This document shows, in pieces, positions 3,608 through 32,331 of a stretch of 32,332 nucleotides of DNA. The DNA comes from Candidatus Saccharimonadota bacterium. GTDB taxonomy: Bacteria; Patescibacteriota; Saccharimonadia; Saccharimonadales; Saccharimonadaceae. The DNA lies in NCBI GenBank assembly GCA_017433245.1, contig JAFRHO010000004.1, positions 1 through 32,332 on the forward strand. The letters are read 5' to 3'. The notes under the pieces are model-generated. The model was not told the DNA's origin. It did no database searches and saw only the letters and a program-made list of their open reading frames with translations. Every line of letters starts with the position of its first letter. The first letter of the stretch is position 1. Made by a program: the position numbers and the translations under genes.

Positions 3608-6600
3608 AACATACTTTAACTCTATCTTCTCCGACCAAATCTCTCAGTTTTGTAAGCAATTCTTCCGACGCATCCACCTTAAATGGCATTCTAAGAGGTC
3701 GCTTTCCTTCACCCTCCTTTAGTACTAATACTACCTCTTGTACCCCAAGATAAATATCCGCCAACCTTCGTATTGCTGTCAGAGTCTCCGTATCATCCGC
3801 ATTTTCAATCAAAATATAAAGTCTCTCCTTACGCGGGTCTTTCGGTGGCTCTTTCAATACTCGTGGCGCTTCTATATTCGGAACTTCGCCAGGCGCCCCC
3901 TTACTGCCTCCACCCCTGTTATAAACTCTCTCCGCTGAAGTTCTCCCTCGACTTTTTTTCGGTGCTGCAACCGGTGACGCTAGCTTAGTCCCTGTCGATT
4001 GATACGAAGCCAACATTTCGTCCGATACCACTTCCACCGTCTCTGCCAATAACTTCACATCCGAAGTTATCCGGCCATCCCTATCCGTCGCACTCACTCT
4101 CCCCTTTACGCGCACTACATTATCTACTTCCAATTTCCCACCAAATTCTGCAAACACTGTAGGAAAAACGATAAATTCTATCTCCGAAGATTTATTTTCC
4201 ATCTTAACAAATGCCATTTTGTCACCCTTTTTCGTCAAAATTGTCCTCACATTTGTAATAATTCCACCCACAACCACTTCTTTATTGTCGTTTTCTGCTG
4301 ACACTAGCGACATTGGATGAGTCTGTTCTTCGAAATATGTATCATACTTATCTAGAGGATGCGCTGACAGATATAGCCCCATCAAGTCACGTTCCCAGAG
4401 TAACTGTTCTTTTTCCGGATGCTGCACCGGAGCCGGCTTAATTTCTACCTCTGGTATTGCCCCCGCTTCACCCATCATCCCGAAGAGATCCGTTTGTCCC
4501 GAACCCACGTCCTTCTGAATCTTCGACCCATAAGCTTGTACCGCCTCAAGGTTATACAGTAAATCACTCCTAGAGTGGCCTAAACTATCAAACGTCCCCG
4601 TCTTAATCGCGCTCTCCCACGCCTTCTTATTAAACTTGGTCGAATCTACCCTCTTCGCAAAATCACATACCGACTTAAACGGCCCATTTTTATCCCGTTC
4701 TGGTATCACAATATCTTCTACTAAAGCCTTCCCCATCCCCTTAATACCAGAAAGACCGAACCGAATTGTCTTTTCACCACCCACGATACCAAAGTCACCA
4801 TATGATTGGTTAATATCCGGTCCGAGAACTTTGAGTCCCATTTTCTTACACTCCGCCATCTCGATGGCTAGTCGATCCGTCCACCTCATATCTGCAGTCA
4901 TCAGAGCCGCCATAAACGCATCTGGGAAGTGTGCTTTTAAGTACGCCGTCCAGTATGCAATCAAAGCATAGCACGCTGCGTGCGACTTATTAAAACAGTA
5001 ATTCGCAAATTCCAACAGTTGACCCCAGAAAGTTTCCGCAATCTCCTCTGTCGCACCACCAATTTCTACTGCCCCCTTGATAAACTCCGGCTTCACCTTC
5101 TTCATTAGATCAATCTTCTTCTTACCCACCGCCTTACGCAAAGTATCAGCCTGCCCACCGGTAAATCCACACCATTCCTTACTAATCTGCATGAACTGTT
5201 CCTGATAAATCATAATTCCGTAGGTGTTTTTTAGGGAGTTCTCCAGTCCAGGATGCAGATAAGTAATCTTCTCTTCCCCGTGCTTGCGTCGAATAAACGA
5301 ATCAATAAACTGCATCGGCCCCGGACGATACAAAGCCACCATAGCGATGATATCCTCAAAAGTAGACGCCTTAAGATCTCGCAAATATCGCTTCATACCC
5401 GCTGACTCCAACTGAAACACGCCAGTCGTCTCTGCCCTCTGGAGCAATGCATAAGTCTCCGGATCATCCAGAGGTAACGAAGATAAGTCAATCTCAGTAT
5501 GATACACTTTTCGTATCATCCTCAATGCATTATTAATCACCGAGAGGTTAGACAACCCCAGAAAATCCATTTTAAGGAGTCCCAATTCTTCCACTTGGCC
5601 CATCGGAAACTGCGCCGCAATCGGCCCCTTCGCCGACACCTCAAGCGGTAAAAATTTTACCAAATCATCCGGTGCGATAATCACCCCACAAGCGTGCACA
5701 CCGTGATTGCGAATCGTCCCCTCAAGCCGCGATGCAAAATCAATCACCTCCTTCGAGGTCGGGTTCGTTTCATACTCCTGTTTCAAATCCGGCACGTCAC
5801 GAATCGCATCAGACAAATGTACATGATGTCCCTGTACCGGATCTGGCACCATTTTAGCCAACCTGTCCGCTTCCGCATATGGCACCTCAAGCACTCGCGC
5901 TACATCACGCACCGCGTTTTTCGCCATCATTTTACCAAATGTTGCGATATTTGACACCCGATCGAATCCATATTTATGCGAACAATACTCAATCACCTCA
6001 TCGCGCCTAGTATCCTGAATATCTGTATCGATATCCGGCATCGAAATACGATCTGGATTCAAGAATCGCTCAAAAAGTAAGTCATATTTCAATGGATCTA
6101 ATTCCGTAATACGAAGCGCATACGCTAGAATCGACCCCGCCGCACTCCCACGTCCAGGCCCATACACGATACGTTGTGATTTACCCCAGTTGATAAAGTC
6201 CTGTACAATCAAGAAATACCCATTATAGCCCATCTTATCCACCACGGACAACTCATAATCAATCCTCGGCAAAACTTTATGTAATTCATCCCTATCCTTA
6301 TCTACCTCTTCCAGAATTTTCCGACACTCTGACACCGTCATCTCTACCGTCTCGTCCAGCTTCTTCCCACCATATCTATAAACCAACCCCTGAAACACCA
6401 ATTTATCGAGATAGGTCTTCTCATCCTCGCCATCCGGCACTGGAAACTTTGGAATCAAAATTCGCCCCAGTTGCAAATCCACATTGCATCTTTCCGCAAT
6501 CGCTCGCGTGTTTCGCACCGCATCCGGGCAAGTCTTTTCCCAATGCGAGATAATCTCTTCCGCGGGTATCACATGTAGGTCATAATCTTTCAAAGTCATT

Positions 6601-27986: not shown

Positions 27987-28061
27987 GGGCTCGTCGTTCA
28001 ACGGATAGGACATATCCCCTCTAAGGATACAATGCTGGTTCGATTCCAGCCGGGCCTACCA
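27987..28061 (+). tRNA. tRNA-Arg (anticodon UCU)
   Basis: The acceptor GGGCTCG pairs with CGGGCCT through G-U at positions 1-72 and 5-68; D stem GTTC/GGAC; anticodon stem TATCC/GGATA around loop CCTCTAA; T arm GCTGG-TTCGATT-CCAGC; CCA encoded. The anticodon is UCU (AGA codons). Position 33 is C instead of the near-universal U. Confidence 0.85.
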
Positions 28062-28082
28062 TACGCTGGTTCGACCGTCGTA

Positions 28083-28178
28083 GGAGCCGAATAAAAAGAA
28101 ATCGCCAGATTTCTTTTTTTGAGGCGACGCCCGACGGACGATTCCCCGCAGGGGAATCGATTCCTGTCGGCTCTACCA
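28083..28178 (+). ncRNA. tRNA-like or decayed tRNA element ending in ACCA
   Basis: GGAGCCG (28083-28089) can pair with CGGCTCT (28168-28174) as a 7-bp acceptor-like stem with a G1-U72 pair, followed by A and CCA, then a T run, exactly like the preceding tRNA-Arg. The 3' half (TCGATTCC...CGG.CTACCAT) resembles the T arm and acceptor of that tRNA. The interior has no D or anticodon arm; instead it has an A/T hairpin (28093-28120) and a strong GC hairpin (28131-28170, core CGATTCCCC-GCA-GGGGAATCG). The acceptor-like pairing and the GC hairpin are partly exclusive. It could be a tRNA remnant, an integration scar or a small structured RNA. Confidence 0.45.
28093..28120 (+). terminator. A/T-rich hairpin with T run after tRNA-Arg
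   Basis: AAAAAGAAATC and GATTTCTTTTT form an 11-bp stem with loop GCCA and two further T residues. It can end the tRNA-Arg transcript, and it lies inside the tRNA-like element. Confidence 0.6.
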
Positions 28179-28218
28179 TTTTTTATAATATATAATTCTC
28201 ACACTTAATAAACCGTAT

Positions 28219-30845
28219 CTACGAACCAACTAGACAACGTACACTCACACCTCGATATTTCGAGGTTATATAGTTTATACCAAAACTCGTATTACCAAAC
28301 TCTAAACTATACGTAGATTGAGGACCGCTATTACTCGCCGATCTACTCCAATAAGAACCAGAACTTCCTCGCCTCATTATAGAAGAACCTGGAATATCAC
28401 CAGCATAAATAAAGTTGTTCGGAAAAGCCATAAGACGCTTTTCGGTATCATTAGTTGCACCACCATAACCTTGAGCAAGAACTCCATATTCCTTAGACCA
28501 ACTACCACTAGAAGGCAAATGCCAATTAGTTGGACATATGGATGTATTGGCATTTTCAGAAACACTCGAATTATAATCGTTAGTATTTGCCATGGCAGCA
28601 GACCAAGTATAATAATTTCCATAAGAATAGATACTCGCATCACCATAGGTTCCAGATTTATTAAGGCGCGGGGAACTATTGTAGGCATAGTCCTCGGAAT
28701 AAGTAGGACTATCTATTATATCATGAGTATTAGTATTATTATAACGTGGGAAACGATAACCTGGGCCCGAATATCCGCCAGTACCAATATCCTCTAAAAC
28801 ATTATTAATTGGATCATATGTATCCACTGGTGGATCAACAGACGACTTATAAACAGTATTTGAAGTAGTCGAACTACTCAAATTATCCTCCGATTCCGCT
28901 AAACCAACAAAAGTACCATAAACACCAGCAGTACCACCATAACCTTGCGAAAGACTCTCATTTGTCACACTACTATCATTTATATTATTCCCCATTGTGC
29001 CATCATGTTCCAATCTTAAGTTTTCTATCATCCAACATTTACCATCTACCAATCTAGCCACAGCGTATAACTCATTATCACGCTTATCGGTTAATACCAC
29101 TATACTGTTTTTATTGACAATTGTCGCACCACTAGTCGAATCAAAAACTGCACTAGTAAGATTATTACACTCCGAAACTCCAAAATCCTGAAGATAAACC
29201 GGCTCATTATTACCATCTTTTTTAGCAGGTACCCATACGGCATACATAGTCATAATGCCATTAGCCGGATAAGCTGGGGTAACAATAGTCTCCTCTGGTC
29301 CATATATCACAGGATCGTTCGTGCTATCATTATCAGTAAAATGACTCCAGGCATCCGAATCCGTAGACCAACCCACAAACCCATAACCAGCACGCTTAAA
29401 ATTACTGGGAAGAAGCATAACATCAATTCCTTCAGTTATGCCACGTTGTTTCACGCTTTTCTTACCCTTTATATCTACAACAATGCCCATGCCATTAGGA
29501 TTATCTGCACCGTTACCATCATATTGTATGGTATATTCATAATCAACAATACAACGAATACTAAAGCCATAATACATTTTGCTCGTGCTAGATGGATTAA
29601 GCCTCGTAGAACCAAGCATCAAAGTCTGTGCGGAATCATATTGCCAATTATTATTCGCCGATCTACTCCAATAATAACCATACGAGCCACGACTGTTCAC
29701 AGATGAGCCACTGATATACCCAGAATATATATAATTATTCGGGAAAGACCGGAATCGACTACTTAAAACATCACCCGCTCCCACGCCACTTTGGTCGGAG
29801 CCACTTCCCCCATATTGCTGTGATAACTTTCCAAATTCCTTTGTCGTAACACTGGAAGGTAAATGCCAACCAGACGGACAAATGGAGGTTTCTGCAGCCT
29901 CTGAAGGAGATTTACCAGTGTTCGCTATAGCGGCCGACCAAGTATAGTAATTACCATACGACGACACCGTAGAAGTCTTATAGATGCCAGTAGCAGATGG
30001 GTTTAAAGCATTTAAATAATTCTCAGTAAATGAAGGCGCAGATAAAGCACTGGAGTTATTAGAATTATTATATCGTGGAAAACGACGAGCTGGCTCATCA
30101 GACGAACCAATATCTTCTAATACACCATTAGCCGGATCGTAAGTGTTAATTGGCGGATTAGCAGATGCTTCATAGACAGTATTAGAGGAAGCCGTAGCGC
30201 TGAAACCCGTAGACTCTGAATCCGCCAAGCCAACAAAGCTACCATAAGTACCAGCAACACCACCATAACCTTGAGACAATAATTCATTAGCAGTACCAAG
30301 CGTTCCGGCCGCATCTACTCTTAAGTTTTCTATCATCCAACATTTACCATCAGCTAGTTTGGCAATAGTATATACTTCATTATCACGTTTATCAGTCAAA
30401 GCCATCACACTACCAGCCGTTATTTTATCCAATGCAGAATTATAAACCGCACTCGTAAGGTTATCACACTGATCTTTTCCAAAATCTTGGAGATAGACTG
30501 GGTTATTGCTACCATCTTTCTCAACTGGAACCCAAACAGCATACATAGTAATAATACTAGTACCATTATTTGGATAAGCAGGAGCACTTATAGTTTCCAT
30601 AGGACCATAGATAACTGGGTCGTTGGTGTTATCGTTATCCGTAAAGTGGAGCCAAGCATCTGGGTCGGTACTCCAGCCAGCGAAGCCGTAGCCAGCACGC
30701 TTGAAGTTAGAGGCAAGGAGGGTTACTGGATCGCCTTCACCCACATTAGTTTGTTTGACACTCTTGACGCCCGTACTTGCGTTTGTGGTGCCCATACCAT
30801 TAGGATTATCGGCACCGTTACCATCATATTGGATGGAGTAAACTG
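28219..30845 (-). repeat. Tandem duplication of a repeat-FISUMP module of about 1.3 kb
   Basis: Two modules, about 29545-30845 and 28219-29545, share protein landmarks in the same order (YDGNGADNPNGMG, FKRAGYGF, TNDPVIYGP, LTDKRDNE, GKCWMIENLR, SYGNYYTWSAA). DNA identity persists in patches, for example an exact 33-base stretch around 29014-29047 and 30319-30351 coding for GKCWMIENLR. Confidence 0.85.
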
Positions 30846-32331
30846 GCACCCAGTGAGCATAAAGAGTAATACTCGCACCCGCTCCTTGTCCAGTAACGGA
30901 ATAAGTACTACTAACTGGATATTCTGCGTTTGCACCAGAAGAGTTATCTGCTACCGTGGACCACCCTTTAATCTTCCAGCCGGTTAATGTCCACGAGTTA
31001 TAATTATATGCTGGTAAAGTAATAGAACCATCACCTGAAGAATTAAGATTTATACTTTGTGATCCAGTATTATTTGAAACTGATTGAGTACAAGATGCAT
31101 TAGCACTAACATAAGTCATACAGTTATCAACATAAGTAATATGATATATCGGGTTCCAAACAGCATACAGAGTCTTGGTGTCACCATTACCACCTGGGAG
31201 ATTGTTTAGAATATCGTCCGCTGAAGTATAATCGGGTGTTGTAGCAGAACTATTTTCACTCCAACCCTGGAATAAACGATCATCATCTGGAGCTGGCTCC
31301 TTGTATTCACCGTAAACAAAAGAACGATCACATACTTCTACAGTAGATGTATAGCTTTCAGGTTCTTCATCATAATAACCAACTACAGCTGCATGATAAC
31401 CCCAGTATTGCCCGGAGCTATCCGAATAAAACGCAAAGGTAGCAGTATCACCAGGAATATCTATTTCTACAGTGGTCGTAGTGTTGTTGCCGCCCATGTA
31501 TGTGGCTAGCTGGCCAGCATTCATATTGCGTGTAACGGAACCGGTATATTCACCTTGGAACACATAGAGCATATCCCAGTTATCTTCGGTACCGTATTTA
31601 ATAGTGACATGTAGCGAATCTGCATTTGGAATTGTAACAACTTCTTTGGTGGCTAGACTATTAGCGTATGTAGTTGAACCAATTTGGGTGCCATCGTCAT
31701 TGATATTGGCAGTATGAGAATAGCTTGGTTGAGATACATATTTATCTACACAGCCATGATAATAACCAAGAGTGTTGCTAGTAGTTCCATCCTCAAACTC
31801 CATACCATTAGTATTGAAGTTGACAACCATAGCGGAGAGAGCTTCCCATTGGGCATATAAAGTAATGGTGCTGCCAATACCGGCTAAATCTTCTACTTCT
31901 TCTTCATTGTCGTAGGGTGTACCAGTACCATCAATGGCAGTATTCCAACCATTGAAGCGCCAGTATGTATTAGCAGTACCTGCAATAGTATCACCATTAG
32001 CATCTTCATAAGATGAACCAAAGGCTGGGGCAGTGAAGGTGTTAGCGGAGAGATTGGTGGGTTCTCCGGCTTCAATTCCCTGGTTGTCCATAGTGCCAGT
32101 ACCACCGTTTGGATTGAAGGCGACGGTATACTGAGTACAAGTAGTATCCATAGTTAAGTAATAGACGATTGCTCCATTATTGGCCATTTGATAAGTACCA
32201 GCGTCTACAGTATTATCTACTTTGGCACCATAATTGATGTTAAAGGTATCATTAATGTCTGCTGATGGGGAGGCAGTTTGTGATGGGGTTTTTAAGACTG
32301 CAGCAGTAGATGAGAGTGGAGAGAAGACAGT
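28219..32331 (-). CDS. Giant surface protein with B-repeats, CUB-like domain and two FISUMP modules (N-terminus outside the window)
   Basis: The frame is open from the right edge to TAG at 28219-28221, giving at least 1370 residues; the first Met inside (32187) is not the start. In protein order there are Listeria-Bacteroides-type repeats (FNPNGGTGTM..WRFNGWN..ITLYAQW), a CUB-like domain (DMLYVFQGEYTG..FAFYSDSSGQYWGYHAAVVGYY) inserted in the second repeat region, further repeats ending YAVW or YAHW, then twice a unit of one repeat plus a FISUMP domain (LTDKRDNEVY, GKCWMIENLR, CPSGWHLPS, YYWSRS, FSIRCIV). The protein should be extracellular and adhesive. No C-terminal anchor is seen, so attachment must be N-terminal. 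Composition is Asn/Ser/Thr/Gly/Tyr-rich, unlike its neighbours. Confidence 0.88.
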   Translation of the reverse strand, partial: TVFSPLSSTAAVLKTPSQTASPSADINDTFNINYGAKVDNTVDAGTYQMANNGAIVYYLTMDTTCTQYTVAFNPNGGTGTMDNQGIEAGEPTNLSANTFTAPAFGSSYEDANGDTIAGTANTYWRFNGWNTAIDGTGTPYDNEEEVEDLAGIGSTITLYAQWEALSAMVVNFNTNGMEFEDGTTSNTLGYYHGCVDKYVSQPSYSHTANINDDGTQIGSTTYANSLATKEVVTIPNADSLHVTIKYGTEDNWDMLYVFQGEYTGSVTRNMNAGQLATYMGGNNTTTTVEIDIPGDTATFAFYSDSSGQYWGYHAAVVGYYDEEPESYTSTVEVCDRSFVYGEYKEPAPDDDRLFQGWSENSSATTPDYTSADDILNNLPGGNGDTKTLYAVWNPIYHITYVDNCMTYVSANASCTQSVSNNTGSQSINLNSSGDGSITLPAYNYNSWTLTGWKIKGWSTVADNSSGANAEYPVSSTYSVTGQGAGASITLYAHWVPVYSIQYDGNGADNPNGMGTTNASTGVKSVKQTNVGEGDPVTLLASNFKRAGYGFAGWSTDPDAWLHFTDNDNTNDPVIYGPMETISAPAYPNNGTSIITMYAVWVPVEKDGSNNPVYLQDFGKDQCDNLTSAVYNSALDKITAGSVMALTDKRDNEVYTIAKLADGKCWMIENLRVDAAGTLGTANELLSQGYGGVAGTYGSFVGLADSESTGFSATASSNTVYEASANPPINTYDPANGVLEDIGSSDEPARRFPRYNNSNNSSALSAPSFTENYLNALNPSATGIYKTSTVSSYGNYYTWSAAIANTGKSPSEAAETSICPSGWHLPSSVTTKEFGKLSQQYGGSGSDQSGVGAGDVLSSRFRSFPNNYIYSGYISGSSVNSRGSYGYYWSRSANNNWQYDSAQTLMLGSTRLNPSSTSKMYYGFSIRCIVDYEYTIQYDGNGADNPNGMGIVVDIKGKKSVKQRGITEGIDVMLLPSNFKRAGYGFVGWSTDSDAWSHFTDNDSTNDPVIYGPEETIVTPAYPANGIMTMYAVWVPAKKDGNNEPVYLQDFGVSECNNLTSAVFDSTSGATIVNKNSIVVLTDKRDNELYAVARLVDGKCWMIENLRLEHDGTMGNNINDSSVTNESLSQGYGGTAGVYGTFVGLAESEDNLSSSTTSNTVYKSSVDPPVDTYDPINNVLEDIGTGGYSGPGYRFPRYNNTNTHDIIDSPTYSEDYAYNSSPRLNKSGTYGDASIYSYGNYYTWSAAMANTNDYNSSVSENANTSICPTNWHLPSSGSWSKEYGVLAQGYGGATNDTEKRLMAFPNNFIYAGDIPGSSIMRRGSSGSYWSRSASNSGPQSTYSLEFGNTSFGINYITSKYRGVSVRCLVGS

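Follow-up and report, generated by a model that had tools for sequence, protein, structure and literature searches.

Directly behind the tRNA-Arg gene of the window (the whole 32,332-nt stretch of Candidatus Saccharimonadota DNA analysed here) lies a stretch, 28062–28184, in which parts of that tRNA recur around strong hairpins. What is it, and how did it come to lie there? A sequence-only reading had offered three answers: the scar of an integration at the tRNA, a degenerate tRNA whose CCA end is still processed, or a small regulatory RNA with two alternative folds. The first was right in essence. We consider it likely that 28062–28184 holds a single copy of a small, mobile DNA palindrome that interrupted an ancestral tRNA-Arg(TCT) at its T loop, the displaced tRNA 3′ end being retained (Table 1); we further propose that such elements would spread by a folded-DNA route.

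Table 1. Features of the tRNA-Arg(TCT) locus in the window.
Feature	Position	Strand	Basis
Functional tRNA-Arg (TCT); acceptor GGGCTCG/CGGGCCT, T stem GCTGG/CCAGC	27987–28061	+	ARAGORN; Rfam RF00005, 53.5 bits
Repeat of the tRNA T-arm 5′ half, GCTGGTTCGA; left side of the interrupted T loop	28065–28074	+	Sequence
TCGA, left copy of the 4-bp direct repeat	28071–28074	+	Comparison with empty sites in four relatives
Element core hairpin P3	28074–28138	+	66-position covariance model R1: 68.5 bits, E 1.3e-18
P3 outer stem	28075–28080 with 28132–28137	+	R1 match
GTAG tag	28080–28083	+	GTAG in 114/128 copies (the pattern used to pick the first 75 fixed TAG)
GA, XYZ = GCC and GA, following GTAG	28084–28085, 28086–28088, 28089–28090	+	XYZ covaries with 28123–28125 across copies
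A/T-rich inner hairpin, AAAAAGAAATC-GCCA-GATTTCTTTTT, then a T run	28093–28118	+	Sequence; arms consistent in the family
Conserved 3′ half of the core, GA-GGC-GA-CG-CC	28121–28131	+	GACGCC in 110/128 copies
Hairpin P4, CGATTCCCC-GCA-GGGGAATCG; C-GNA-G loop, a type stable in DNA	28139–28159	+	Sequence; P4 loop tally
TCGA, right copy of the 4-bp direct repeat	28157–28160	+	Comparison with empty sites in four relatives
Fossil 3′ end of the ancestral tRNA-Arg(TCT)	28157–28184	+	28/28 identity to the intact tRNA-Arg(TCT) 3′ end of relative G026

The repeats noticed earlier are real. GCTGGTTCGA occurs twice in the window, in the T arm of the tRNA-Arg gene (28034–28043) and again behind it, as claimed, and the third T-arm/acceptor-like copy with its terminal ACCA is present at 28160–28178. 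It belongs to a fossil tRNA tail made up of T loop, T-stem 3′ strand, acceptor 3′ strand CGGCTCT, ACCA and a T-run. The two strong hairpins reported for the middle of the stretch are likewise there (28093–28118 and 28139–28159). Neither ARAGORN nor Rfam called anything tRNA-like in 28062–28184, with no RF00005 match even at E ≤ 5; Rfam assigned the stretch to no known RNA family and found the tRNA-Arg at 27987–28061 alone. A degenerate tRNA with a processed CCA end is not supported: all that remains of a tRNA is its 3′ strand, without a cloverleaf, and the acceptor strand mismatches the neighbouring tRNA. Further along, the minus strand carries a 1,322-aa open reading frame (28219–32187) that encodes Fib_succ_major and List_Bact_rpt domains and terminates at a distance of 35 bp from the fossil tail; domains of these types are often targeted by diversity-generating retroelements.

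Comparison of this junction, which the sequence-only reading had proposed to check in strains, revealed the empty site when made among relatives. The orthologous tRNA-Arg(TCT) of G004, G007, G025 and G026, with the same methyltransferase gene upstream, lacks the insert and reads GGT-TCGA-TTCC, whereas the filled site of the window reads GGT-TCGA-(28075–28156)-TCGA-TTCCTGTCGGCTCTACCATTTTTT. This contrast identifies TCGA as a 4-bp direct repeat and 28157–28184 as a displaced 3′ end. GGAGCCG, still present in G026 and G033, fits the fossil acceptor strand CGGCTCT, but the acceptor of the window's own tRNA does not; the functional tRNA was either altered after the insertion or swapped by recombination. 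Displaced ends of this kind are fossils of tRNA evolution, and here the old tail and the present tRNA differ in both acceptor and T stem. A second site also differs between genomes: tRNA-Ile(TAT) is empty in the window, whereas in G007 and G113 a copy of the element directly adjoins the CCA of this tRNA.

The insert belongs to a family. A DNA search divided the stretch in two, query positions 96–123 matching intact tRNA 3′ ends in relatives and positions 7–77 matching a dispersed repeat. The pattern TAGGAG-N-CGA..GAGGCGACG occurred in 44 of 147 genomes of the genus (reversed-pattern control, 0 matches). R1, a covariance model of the core, detected it in 49 of 60 genus genomes at 1–18 copies per genome, counts that do not equal independent events because copies share ancestry; many were probably inherited rather than newly inserted. 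The genomes sampled were mostly metagenome assemblies. Three copies were found in the window's genome, and the only match within the window was at 28074–28138. When R1 was run across the order, the element appeared outside the genus only within the same family, and the other families of the order yielded none. Named records with the same form, among the matches listed, were Candidatus Saccharibacteria, several of them from sheep, goat or cattle gut. We found no literature on such repeats in Saccharibacteria.

Pattern matches from other phyla, among those listed, were mostly due to chance and lay in GC-rich coding DNA; L095 (Uhrbacteria) and L104 and L177 (Fibrobacter) look structurally genuine. 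At L095 (Candidatus Uhrbacteria, 3821–3865), a structurally good core directly adjoins an opposite-strand tRNA-Ile gene at the 5′ end of that gene. Viral carriage was considered and rejected, the 27 pattern matches on viral contigs having no element-like outer stem plus inner hairpin.

Across the family, P3 follows the layout GTAG-GA-XYZ-GA-(A/T hairpin)-GA-Z′Y′X′-GACG-CC enclosed by a 6-bp outer stem, and is followed by the second hairpin, P4, with short loops. The first 75 copies were picked with a pattern that fixes TAGGAG and GAGGCGACG and leaves the stems free. The outer stem covaried freely, with 65 cells in which both sides had changed versus 15 in shuffles and flat sliding controls, and XYZ and its partner appeared as GCC/GGC, GGT/ACC, ACC/GGT, GCT/AGC, AGC/GCT, GAT/ATC and GTC/GAC. 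TAG sits in an internal loop, but the G before it forms a pair of the covarying outer stem. In the inner hairpin the 5′ arm is A-rich and the 3′ arm T-rich throughout the family. An early idea, that the P3 stems are copied from the target, did not hold generally; the stems fall into recurring subtypes.

The 7-bp acceptor-like helix that had been proposed to close the structure is not conserved across the copies. GGAGCCG (28083–28089) and CGGCTCT (28168–28174) can indeed pair, counting one G·T, but this is no special feature of the family: in 31 of 128 copies these core positions had a complement of at least 7 within the next 90 nt. The helix competes with the covarying fold, and forming it would break the conserved P3 core.

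The copies are concentrated behind tRNA genes. Directly 3′ of a same-strand tRNA gene lay 87 of the 128 distinct copies, covering 16 isotypes, whereas about 0.5% would be expected there by chance (our own estimate). Eighty of these had a spacer, mostly of 69–83 nt (class A), and seven sat at the CCA itself; the remainder comprised 1 copy near an opposite-strand tRNA and 40 with no tRNA nearby. TTCG or TTCA, the start of the T loop, preceded 70 of the 80 class-A copies. The 3′ end of the same tRNA was repeated downstream (at least 13 of 16 bases) in 59 of 79 testable class-A copies, compared with an average of ~7% of other tRNA tails that matched equally well. Copies without a tRNA often occupied the tips of long intergenic hairpins; a location inside RNase P, tmRNA or other known non-coding RNAs was ruled out. 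L278 and L298 are exact or truncated tandem repeats of whole units.

These positions also bear on another route to a displaced tRNA end, in which a tyrosine-integrase island at the tRNA-Arg was deleted and left its attL and attR copies of the tRNA 3′ end as a scar. A T-loop crossover with a displaced tRNA 3′ end is the usual mark of such integration, and at L062, L063 and L296 tRNA tails are duplicated together with terminators, but the same 66-nt core recurs between the repeats at 16 tRNA isotypes and at 40 sites without a tRNA. Furthermore, the repeats enclose only the element core, and no integrase gene or island was noted in the open reading frames between close copy pairs. We regard an island scar as improbable.

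The element behaves as a DNA palindrome. Its P2, P3 outer, P3 inner and P4 stems contained 3,765 Watson–Crick pairs, 44 G·T and 52 A·C, as against 1,108, 84 and 3 in the acceptor and T stems of the tRNAs at the same loci (G·T/A·C, element versus tRNA stems, Fisher P = 3e-15). A constraint acting on RNA tolerates G·U and rejects A·C, whereas the stems of the element treat the two alike. C-GNA-G loops closed P2 in 56 copies and P4 in 32, with C-TTTA-G in P4 of a further 20; triloops of the d(GNA) kind with a C-G closing pair are known to form stable hairpins in DNA (PMC5815330). Because the stems show no excess of G·T over A·C and the loops are of DNA mini-hairpin types, we conclude that DNA is the level at which the palindrome is maintained or generated. 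The count of G·T versus A·C offers a simple way to separate DNA palindromes from RNA structures in any repeat family.

The regulatory RNA of the sequence-only reading, a structured or tRNA-like transcript read through from tRNA-Arg with two alternative folds, is by the same evidence highly improbable. The stems of the 128 copies lack the G·U excess present in the tRNA control, the triloops are of DNA type, the alternative helix is not conserved and Rfam gives no match; in addition, most class-A loci have a palindromic, terminator-like hairpin between tRNA and element. The features that would suit such an RNA are the strong fold (z −4.5 against shuffles as RNA; z −4.8 as DNA), the covarying outer stem, the same-strand place behind tRNAs and the A/T hairpin with its T run. 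The arm asymmetry of the inner hairpin does leave room for a terminator role: it could reflect an RNA-level constraint, and the element may secondarily serve to terminate the tRNA transcript. A simple terminator scan did not call the inner hairpin.

Searches for a partner enzyme gave little. Y1 transposase (PF01797) was present in only 5 of 147 genomes, mostly as fragments, and the REP transposase model NF047646 scored above its cut-off in 0 of 100 genomes and below it in 1 of 100; IS200/605 or RAYT partners are essentially absent from carriers. Reverse transcriptase, found in 87 of 147 genomes, is not required because several carriers lack one. An autonomous element between close copy pairs was also considered, and only ordinary-looking genes were noted there.

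The element resembles GTAG-tagged REPs but differs in its tRNA target, its low copy number and the near absence of RAYT. Its bulged stem recalls that of E. coli REPs, for whose transposase GTAG and the bulge are required (PMC3733652, PMC8266576). As in the GTAG-1/-2 REPs of E. coli and Pseudomonas, described in Di Nocera 2013 (PMC3733652), there is a 5′-foot GTAG with an extra GA before the stem and a mismatch-bulged palindrome that is intergenic and non-coding; like some REP families there, it can sit within larger palindromes. Unlike GTAG REPs, which are 20–40 bp units at high copy number, it has a 66-nt core with an outer stem and second hairpin at 1–18 copies per genome, no RAYT and no G·T excess, and about two thirds of its copies follow tRNA genes and are accompanied by a repeat of the tRNA 3′ end.

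Could it nonetheless be a true GTAG REP, moved by a RAYT since lost or very divergent? The GTAG tag, extra GA, bulged stem and insertion within larger palindromes are all REP traits (PMC3733652, PMC8266576). Set against these are the near absence of RAYT/Y1_Tnp from carriers, the small copy number and the outer stem that pairs the first G of GTAG, and we think this origin rather unlikely. As the REP transposase is essentially absent, we call the element REP-like, not REP.

Other small elements offer partial parallels. Mitochondrial hairpin elements of fungi and sponges (Allomyces DHE, yeast GC clusters; PMC2800124, PMC4478555) share adjacent hairpins, the lack of coding capacity, a scattered presence and no known dedicated enzyme; their sequence, host and target are different, and we do not claim homology. 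Rickettsia palindromic elements and CGTC REPs are likewise palindromic without a dedicated transposase, and the bottom strand of our core has CGTC ahead of the stem, as in CGTC REPs; theirs, however, are shorter stems, and tRNA targeting was not found in the passages of PMC3733652 consulted.

We propose that the mobile unit comprises P3 and P4, about 82 bp (28075–28156), and that its insertion left the TCGA direct repeat, the duplicated T-arm stretch and the severed old tRNA 3′ end, with an intact tRNA-Arg kept or rebuilt immediately upstream. It may spread as a folded single strand or cruciform, be recognised through GTAG and the tandem GA mismatches by analogy with REPs, and insert preferentially at the tips of DNA hairpins such as the T arm; the mobilising enzyme would work in trans or be host-encoded. 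The intact tRNA 3′ end ahead of the insert could have arisen by duplication during insertion, via tandem duplication or template switching. To our knowledge, duplication of the host tRNA's 3′ end fits no standard transposition.

The broader proposal, that this is a RAYT-independent, REP-like DNA element of Saccharibacteria which preferentially targets the T arm of tRNA genes in its DNA-hairpin form and, on insertion, copies the 3′ end of the tRNA so that the host tRNA survives, is one that we advance tentatively, though it could well be right. If true, an element lacking a transposase would here have a new, tRNA-safe way of choosing its targets. Although the genomes of Saccharibacteria are very small, the palindrome is present in most sampled species of the genus, where it mainly follows essential tRNA genes and no transposase is obvious.

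Several further arrangements were observed around these loci. A second repeat family, made of long hairpins, occupies the interval from tRNA gene to element, GCCGGC-ATCTCGGC-TTTTTTC.TGCTCGCT ... GCRCTTCGCA.GAAGAAAA.ACC-AATCTG-GCCGGC (L015, L029, L044, L250, L293 and L303; 12 of 60 genus genomes). At L322 (G010, tRNA-Trp), L008, L014 and L017, tRNA 3′ ends are repeated behind the tRNA; the P3 core is absent there, and nothing but a small hairpin separates the tail from an inverted copy of the T arm; the tRNA-Trp 3′ ends of L322 form a tandem array that includes the terminator.

Some copies adjoin coding or promoter sequence. In genome G064, several (L286, L289, L290, L291) lie at the 3′ end of similar reading-frame ends (..CGCTGCCTTAGTACTGTATTAGGTATG) and appear to provide the TAG stop codon; the Fibrobacter copies L104 and L177 provide one too. 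At L297, L254, L004, L054 and L275 the copies are promoter-associated, the 3′ arm of P4 ending in a −35-like box, TTGAC(A), and most of them have TTGAC on the left flank too.
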